Assembly: GCF_000741775.1 (NCBI RefSeq)
Contig: NZ_JGZR01000009.1
Location: 1-64,000 of the forward strand
DNA: 64,000 nt
Direction: 5' to 3'
Origin: Bifidobacterium subtile
GTDB taxonomy: Bacteria; Actinomycetota; Actinomycetes; Actinomycetales; Bifidobacteriaceae
Made by a program: the position numbers and the translations under genes. The notes beneath the pieces are model-generated. The model searched no databases. It saw nothing but the letters and a program-made list of their open reading frames with translations, and was not told where the DNA came from. The first letter of the stretch is position 1; the number at the start of each line of letters is the position of its first letter. Positions 51,963 to 53,507 of the stretch are shown here, piece by piece.

Positions 51963-52676
51963 ATGAATGCAGCGCCAAGGAATATTGTTTTGCTTGATCT
52001 CGACGGCACGCTGACCGCATCAGCTCCAGGAATCATCGCCAGCGTGAGAAAAGCCTATGCCGATATGGAGCTGCCAGTACCTGACGACGCAGAACTGCAA
52101 CGGTTCATCGGCCCGGCGATCATCGAATCCCTGCAACGCAACCATGTGCCCGACGATATGCTGCAGCAGGGCGTCGACGCCTACCGCAGCTATTACTCCG
52201 ACATCCCCGCCTTCGACGACCCGAACGACCCGGGGCACAAAGTCCCCGGACACTTGTGCTGCACCGTGTTCGATGGCATACCCGAGCAGCTGGCCGCGCT
52301 GCGGAGCGACGGCTTCATGCTGGCGCTTGCCACGGCGAAACCCGAATACCAGGCGAAGCCAGTATGCGCGCATTTCCACATCGATCACATGATCGATGAG
52401 ATCTACGGCGCCAGCCGTGATTTCTCACGCTTGAAGAAGGACCAGGTAATCCGCTACGCCTTCGACAACATCGGCTTCGACCCCGCCAACGGCGACAGGG
52501 CGCTTATGGTCGGCGACCGCTGGACCGACGTAGACGGTGCCATCGCCTGCGGCCTAGACTGCCTGGGCTGTCGCTGGGGCTACGCCGAGCCGAACGAACT
52601 CGAAGAGCACGGCGCCTACCGCGTCATCGACCATGTCGATCAGCTGCACGACGCCGTGAGCGAATACTTTGGTTGA
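51963..52676 (+). CDS. HAD-superfamily phosphatase (PGP/Gph-like)
   Basis: 237 residues, GGGGAG upstream. Motif I LLDLDGTLT (D14, D16), motif II LALATAKP (Thr in TAK), Lys in SRLKKDQVIRYAF, and motif IV VGDRWTDVDGA. The small helical C1 cap is typical of phosphoglycolate/beta-phosphoglucomutase-like members. The insert DDPNDPGHKVPGHLCC near residue 80 is unusual. Substrate not deducible. Confidence 0.88.
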   Translation: MNAAPRNIVLLDLDGTLTASAPGIIASVRKAYADMELPVPDDAELQRFIGPAIIESLQRNHVPDDMLQQGVDAYRSYYSDIPAFDDPNDPGHKVPGHLCCTVFDGIPEQLAALRSDGFMLALATAKPEYQAKPVCAHFHIDHMIDEIYGASRDFSRLKKDQVIRYAFDNIGFDPANGDRALMVGDRWTDVDGAIACGLDCLGCRWGYAEPNELEEHGAYRVIDHVDQLHDAVSEYFG

Positions 52677-52773
52677 ATTTACGAAATTTGTTGCTTGCTA
52701 CTGATTTCTTTTGATACATGTGTCATTATTCATTCCTCAATAGAATATAACTACTACATACATCCGATAATGT

Positions 52774-53035
52774 ACGTTATGTCAGATTAAAAATCTGACA
52801 TAACGTCGATTGGTTATATCGCAAAGAACAGCCCTTTGCTGACATAACCAATCGCGTTTAGCAGTGGCACTATCTTGACACAGTGTCGTGTGGTTATATC
52901 GCAGGAAACGTCCTTTGCTGACATAACCACACGCACTTTAACGCTGGTGTAAGGCTAACATAACGTCGATTGGTTATATCGCAAGGAATGGCACCTTGCT
53001 GACATAACCACACGCGGCCTTAGCATTAGTAAGGA
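52774..53035. repeat. Intergenic array: one perfect hairpin plus three 80-bp hairpin units
   Basis: ACGTTATGTCAGATT (52774-52788) pairs with its complement at 52792-52806. Three units follow with exact 80-base period: GGTTATATCGCA starts at 52812, 52892 and 52972. Unit 1 pairs CGATTGGTTAT/ATAACCAATCG and GCAAAG/CTTTGC; unit 2 CGTGTGGTTAT/ATAACCACACG; unit 3 GCAAGG/CCTTGC inside a partly mismatched outer stem. Paired changes preserve the stems between units. Each ends in TGACATAACC. AT-rich surroundings from 52677 to 53123 contain no gene. Confidence 0.85.
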
Positions 53036-53106
53036 ACAAACAGCTTCCATGTACCGACAATAACTAAGCGCTTTCGTTTCTTCGGAGGACGTTTTGCTCC
53101 ACATAT

Positions 53107-53140
53107 CGGTTCACACTGGTATCTCAAAAAGTGTGAACCG
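53107..53140. promoter_or_regulatory. 11-bp inverted repeat at the 3' end of a small membrane protein gene
   Basis: CGGTTCACACT (53107-53117) pairs with AGTGTGAACCG (53130-53140) around twelve bases. The last codons and stop of the minus-strand gene lie in it. The 13-mer GGTTCACACTGGT here recurs with one mismatch at 54181, upstream of the MerR gene. It could be a terminator or a binding site. Confidence 0.55.
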
Positions 53141-53507
53141 CGCCTGAGAGCACCTCATCGATGTGGCTGCGTTCGGCGCGACGTGATTGAAGAATCAGCA
53201 GCAGCACGTCGGCAATGATCAAAGCAGCGAGCACGATCGCGGAGACAAAGCCGACCTGCGTGTACAGCTTTTGCACGTGTTTGGCATAGCCTGCGCCAAT
53301 CACCAAATACACGAGGTATGCCAGCAATCCTGTAATCAGTGAAAGAATATGGCATTTGGCCACGTTCCAGCCTACCGGACGAACTGGTTTGGACGAGCGG
53401 CCGTAATGGCTTCGGACAACGCTCAATACGGCGATGCCGATGCAAATCAATGCGGAAAGCACCCAAAGCGCCGCCGGTATCGCTTCAAACCACATATGTG
53501 CCGACAC
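53124..53507 (-). CDS. Small three-helix membrane protein, unknown function
   Basis: 127 residues. TM helices about 9-28, 52-74 and 84-106. A Lys/Arg-rich loop (SHYGRSSKPVRPVG) follows helix 1. No family recognised. It lies 14 bases after the MerR gene in the same direction, so it may be co-transcribed. The codon for its last residues lies inside the 53107-53140 palindrome. Confidence 0.6.
   Translation of the reverse strand: MSAHMWFEAIPAALWVLSALICIGIAVLSVVRSHYGRSSKPVRPVGWNVAKCHILSLITGLLAYLVYLVIGAGYAKHVQKLYTQVGFVSAIVLAALIIADVLLLILQSRRAERSHIDEVLSGAVHTF

Follow-up and report, generated by a model that had tools for sequence, protein, structure and literature searches.

The window analysed here, a 64,000-nucleotide stretch of a Bifidobacterium subtile contig, contains an array of three hairpin units with an 80-bp period lying between convergent genes, and the question this locus raises is what the hairpins belong to. 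A preliminary description had reported the units together with a separate 15-bp hairpin in front of them, had noted that no transposase, CRISPR signature or gene was attached, and had considered a structured RNA, a protein-binding DNA array or a palindromic mobile unit. The array sits directly on the chromosomal dif site, and hence the view that nothing is attached to it is not supported; the part of that view that stands is that the units are not CRISPR-like (see below).

Usually regarded as a bare 28-bp site, dif is the spot where joined chromosomes get resolved. In the window it occupies positions 52760 to 52787 of the plus strand, with the XerC arm at 52760 to 52770, the 6-bp centre TGTACG at 52771 to 52776, and the XerD arm TTATGTCAGAT at 52777 to 52787. 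With its 6-bp centre flanked by two arms of 11 bp each, it is identified by sequence as a chromosomal actinobacterial dif. The same layout (28 bp, two 11-bp half-sites, 6-bp centre) is given in the available text of PMC5357621, and the dif of Frankia alni, as it appears in the available text of PMC3025954, resembles the window's dif core.

The dif core was present in 109 of 112 Bifidobacterium genomes, i.e., it is conserved genus-wide; the three genomes without it (G053, G126, and G136) are all represented by assemblies that are 74 to 78% complete. A 311-bp query containing dif matched 63 of 99 genomes, comprising the window's own genome, 59 of 60 other Bifidobacterium genomes and three others of the order. 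Further dif loci were collected from seven genomes beside matches to the covariance model described below and from two added genus samples (23/23 and 19/22). One dif per genome was the rule, with a second match of varied quality in four genomes (G017, G022, G045, and G122). As to a place opposite the replication origin, the contig fractions, counted from whatever point the contig numbering begins at, were mixed, being 0.48 to 0.54 in six genomes (G048, G004, G025, G058, G015, and G055) and 0.32, 0.14, and 0.81 in G029, G052, and G118, respectively; the GC skew of the window by itself points neither way. The window's own genome has a XerD gene that scores above its curated cut-off. Three tyrosine recombinase genes lie side by side in this genome (G000:C23:16912-19602).

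The leading 15-bp hairpin (52774 to 52806; hereafter H0), in which positions 52774 to 52788 pair with 52792 to 52806 around an AAA loop, is not the separate element it had been taken for but the dif XerD arm plus an inverted copy of that arm (52792 to 52806). The motif that the units had been found to share with it, CTGACATAACG, is indeed the complement of the dif XerD arm. A 10-bp gap (52804 to 52813) separates the inverted arm (ACATAA) from the TTATAT core of the first unit. All three units are on the XerD side of dif and were matched by the covariance model on the minus strand: unit 1 at 52805 to 52856 (56.1 bits, 14/14 stem pairs standard), unit 2 at 52885 to 52935 (54.9 bits, 14/14 stem pairs), and unit 3 at 52965 to 53016 (47.9 bits, with a partly broken outer stem). 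Their left arms are spaced by 80 and 80 bp and their right arms by 79 and 81 bp. Since the inverted arm recurs, in degenerate form, before units 2 and 3, the 80-bp period is made up of arm, hairpin, and spacer. The core of the units, TTATGT, corresponds to the first letters of the XerD arm, and a folded unit resembles half of a dif, with about 6 bp at the place of the dif centre followed by an Xer half-site core.

Arm spacing, model matches, and folding together confirmed the three-unit array. Folded as RNA, positions 52760 to 53030 reached −106.7 kcal/mol, compared to a shuffle mean of −65.7 (SD 4.5, n = 200; z = −9.1), with 0/200 shuffles as good. Single units folded on both strands gave z values of −3.5 to −7.9, and the leading hairpin −5.3; the fold of unit 3 on the plus strand was equalled by 1/200 shuffles and the other single-unit folds by 0/200. 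The paired stem changes initially quoted are present in the sequence. The stems as first described need two corrections: the inner stem of unit 2 is imperfect, and in unit 3 CGATTGG stands opposite CCACACG, which leaves 12/14 of its stem pairs standard. The repeat copies are 73 to 87% identical with the paired arms included, and a CRISPR array, which would show nearly identical repeats separated by unrelated spacers, was rejected on that account.

The XerD side of dif was read in all 109 loci, presence without a model match being judged by eye. Array arrangements were found at 25 of the 109 readable loci (23 intact and two decayed, L342 and L361), always on the XerD side; the other 84 loci had none. 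The covariance model, trained on 29 units taken from 17 genomes, had hits (E ≤ 0.01) in 22 of the 112 genus genomes, many of which are thus training genomes. The fetched match adjoined dif in 22/22, with a dif core of 20 or 21 of 21 letters in each of the fetched loci, and model matches without a fetched locus were at neighbouring positions on the same contigs. Searches over >40 genomes used stricter filters, under which the intact array of L054 was missed although it is a member of the model; the decayed array of L342 was missed even by a local model search (E up to 5). With the stricter filters, 297 genomes drawn from the order yielded a match in the window's own genome only. An exact pattern scan returned ten hits, of which two were not dif; the carriers were Bifidobacterium simiiventris, B. 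amazonense, B. tibiigranuli, and five other Bifidobacterium strains or MAGs.

In its own genome, the array's three model-matched units (E up to 10) shared a single location and were the only copies. The dispersed palindromic mobile unit initially proposed does not fit such confinement, and a REP/MITE-type element was rejected on this basis together with the position, at dif, of the fetched matches from 22 genomes.

In an rpoB tree of 80 genomes, 23 carriers fell into four groups, requiring 7 changes (6 of them forced by well-supported branches) versus 20.1 with shuffled labels; for this count G115 was scored as array-free though it carries a decayed array, and G137 was left out. Such a patchy distribution fits both an old origin followed by losses and transfer between species. 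With most dif loci array-free and close relatives differing, the array is dispensable. In the array-free relative L327, similarity to L222 resumes 36 bases past the start of dif, the corresponding distance in L222 being 216 bases.

The array is linked to dif and not to genes: the neighbours change and the array stays. An HAD gene lies upstream in 10 of the 25 carriers and a membrane gene downstream in 21, in flanks of mostly 1.0 to 1.5 kb. The array was also kept in L238, where an inovirus-like prophage with Zot and Rep_1 domains is present at dif (Zot being used here as a family label, with a predicted function). The right junction of L238 retains the chromosomal XerD arm and the array and matches L222 at 99.8% identity across 560 bases.

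As for the genes downstream of dif, the membrane gene is replaced in L005, L009, and L010 by a putative member, judged by eye, of the N-acetylneuraminate lyase family, and L004 has yet another gene at this position.

The covariation initially seen among the three units was borne out in larger alignments, where pairing is kept through paired changes. Across 29 units, 88.6% of the cells were standard pairs and the covariation score was 0.372, versus 0.140 in shuffled controls (0/500) and ≤0.068 in slid controls; for the first units of the 23 intact arrays, the corresponding values were 94.1%, 0.513, 0.167 (0/500), and ≤0.075, both paired percentages being raised by the omission of the decayed arrays L342 and L361 from the two alignments. 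Relatedness inflates the shuffle control and affects the slid control less. In the first units, the outer-stem columns 6/58, 7/57, and 8/56 were paired in 23/23; 6/58 showed five pair types and the other two showed four each. RNAalifold recovered a 13-pair stem inside the stem defined here. Two other measures were weaker: shuffles reached the number of two-sided changed pairs in 63/500 and the number of pair types in 120/500 for the 23 first units, and in 45/500 and 12/500, respectively, for the 29 units. Units were chosen for alignment by a hand-made regular expression, which missed the model-found second unit of L008 and third unit of L203.

These alignments separate fixed from free parts. 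TTATGT and its partner are nearly invariant, the outer stem of about 6 bp is variable but paired, and the tip varies in both length and letters. An inverted copy of the XerD arm was found in 23 of the 24 carrier loci examined, and the 10-bp spacing from inverted arm to core in 22 of the 23 intact arrays (L055 is without the inverted copy; L005 was read by eye). About half of the H0 copies carry a one-base insertion; the H0 tips change together (TTTC/GAAA, TTAC/GTAA, TTGC/GCAA, and AAAAG/CTTTT) and are unpaired in L005, L209, and others. Beyond dif, an exact 9-base XerD arm was absent from the searched stretch of 13 of the 25 arrays, which together with the H0 insertions leaves just the short core as firmly Xer-like. 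The XerC arm motif recurs beyond dif in one of the 25 arrays, the half-sites of the other 24 being of the XerD type only.

Given that dif is the constant partner of the array and that the core of the units is that of a dif half-site, we favour the interpretation, with a probability of about 0.42, that the array acts in cis as a DNA element of the Xer/dif terminus system, anchored on the XerD side of dif and offering foldable Xer half-sites. The covariation, the changing gene neighbours, the poorer pairing of later units than of first ones, and the XerD gene of the window's own genome also speak for it; against it stand the arrays with no exact XerD arm beyond dif, the H0 insertions, the 84 array-free loci, and the two weaker covariation measures. 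A DNA array thus fits best among the options first considered, with a structured RNA retained as a rival. We infer binding of XerD, folding in the cell, and the consequences that these would have. If the stretch became single-stranded or were extruded as a cruciform, the units would fold and present several Xer half-sites beside dif; these might hold XerD near dif and, through XerD, perhaps FtsK or SMC condensin, and the XerD so held could tune dimer resolution or terminus handling. A more specific version is less likely: in it the folded DNA, under pairing selection, would be a structured accessory sequence of dif that presents a ladder of Xer half-sites, and the XerD loaded there would either switch on FtsK-dependent recombination or take condensin off the DNA. 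Were a terminus element of this kind to be present, the array at 25 of 109 loci would add a component to the known terminus machinery and would exemplify selection on folded DNA in a chromosome, at the entry point of bifidobacterial prophages.

Several known systems share features with the array. Integron attC arrays are likewise rows of hairpins with a constant core and a variable tip; they differ in that the window units have no cassette genes between them, and an attC array was rejected, the 80-bp units leaving no space for gene cassettes. With chromosomal dif/XerCD the array shares its place, being an extension of dif, and the core of the XerD arm, which recurs in the units; dif as described in the available text of PMC5357621 comes without attached hairpins, whereas the window dif has them. 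The XDS of Bacillus subtilis, XerD sites at which SMC is unloaded in the terminus (Karaboja 2021, as summarized in the available text of PMC10945525 and PMC12322038), are similar in providing several XerD-type sites near the terminus, a likeness drawn from these descriptions; the candidate sites of the array differ in being packed within ~260 bp of dif and in being foldable. The CTXphi attP(+), as presented in the available text of PMC3089051, is also a folded single strand displaying Xer half-sites, but the array is chromosomal, has no phage genes, and in 24 of 25 cases shows XerD-type half-sites only; assignment to this class, which needs inverted XerC and XerD arms, was rejected. With difSL/XerS of streptococci (available text of PMC5357621) the array shares inverted arms and a long centre, of 11 bp there and 10 bp here, but in streptococci a single recombinase acts on difSL itself as its recombination site, whereas the array stands beside a normal dif. 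Hairpins attached to dif in Bifidobacterium were not described in the titles and abstract openings searched, a set with most subscription journals outside it, and the array appears to be an undescribed companion of dif.

Alternatively, the array could be a neutral quasi-palindrome, generated by template switching from the dif arm and kept complementary by arm-to-arm correction, not by selection. The copies of the dif arm in the units, the many array-free genomes, the decayed copies in L342 and L361, and the poorer pairing of later units (138/167 cells, versus 221/238 in first units) are all in line with such an origin. However, correction should erase both the mismatch at columns 14/50 (on the minus strand, G-T in 22/29 units, G-C in six, and A-C in one) and the extra base in one arm, and both are still there; nor do the 10-bp spacing and the TTATGT core change, although the outer stem changes completely. 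We regard this explanation as unlikely.

It is improbable, too, that the array is the scar or landing pad of mobile elements, i.e., that single-stranded phages or plasmids which entered at dif through folded Xer attachment sites left hairpins that were later multiplied in tandem. Inovirus-like prophages do enter dif in the genus (L081 and L238), CTXphi does use a folded single-stranded site with two inverted dif-like sites (available text of PMC3089051), and the distribution is patchy, with its seven changes on the rpoB tree. However, model searches found no unit in the phage sequence of L079, L080, L081, and L237 (E up to 5), and the one match in L238 was in its chromosomal part, with none in the phage part. 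The window array was without a match in phage and plasmid collections, the XerC arm motif beyond dif is confined to one array, and pairing and spacing are preserved across diverged species, all of which argue against a scar. A loose hairpin pattern gave at least 120 matches in viral contigs and was too unspecific for use.

Regarding the prophages themselves, L081, L237, and L238 are inovirus-like Bifidobacterium prophage contigs, of which L081 and L238 lie next to dif, with Zot and Rep_1 domains in both; the attachment point of L238 coincides with the end of the Rep_1 reading frame. Further prophage ends appear to adjoin dif on its XerC side, where the sequence leading into dif in L223, L342, and L054 looks by eye like that of viral contig L080. 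The translation after dif in L079 and L080 resembles a putative tyrosine integrase.

A structured RNA, in which the hairpins would work within a transcript (most likely of the minus strand), for instance by forming its 3′ end or a terminator between the convergent genes, is quite improbable given that the array follows dif and not any gene, that no Rfam match was found, that a T-rich tail (5 of 8) follows 2/36 units on the plus strand and 1/36 on the minus strand, and that the sole terminator-like site in 52600 to 53200 falls outside the array. What speaks for it, besides the convergent genes around the window dif, is that the minus strand folds better by >0.5 kcal/mol in 27/36 units with RNA and 30/36 with DNA parameters (the plus strand in 6/36 and 2/36, respectively) and that 22/29 units show the fixed odd pair as G-U when read on the minus strand, although this pair is reversed in L054 and L224. 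Outside the fixed pair, the minus strand has 8 G-T versus 5 A-C cells, a difference that tips neither way. A curated RNA family was rejected (Rfam 15 gave two tRNAs only in the window, and no match at all in five loci at E up to 0.5), as was an intrinsic terminator, with 33/36 units having no T tract on either strand; the T tracts on the plus strand follow units of L045 and L055. A promoter scan was at chance level (1 found versus 1.1 expected).

Finally, a second palindrome, GGTTCACACT / AGTGTGAACC, is located at positions 53108 to 53139, at the end of the membrane gene. It is unrelated to the dif core, and several copies similar to it are present downstream of dif in L072.
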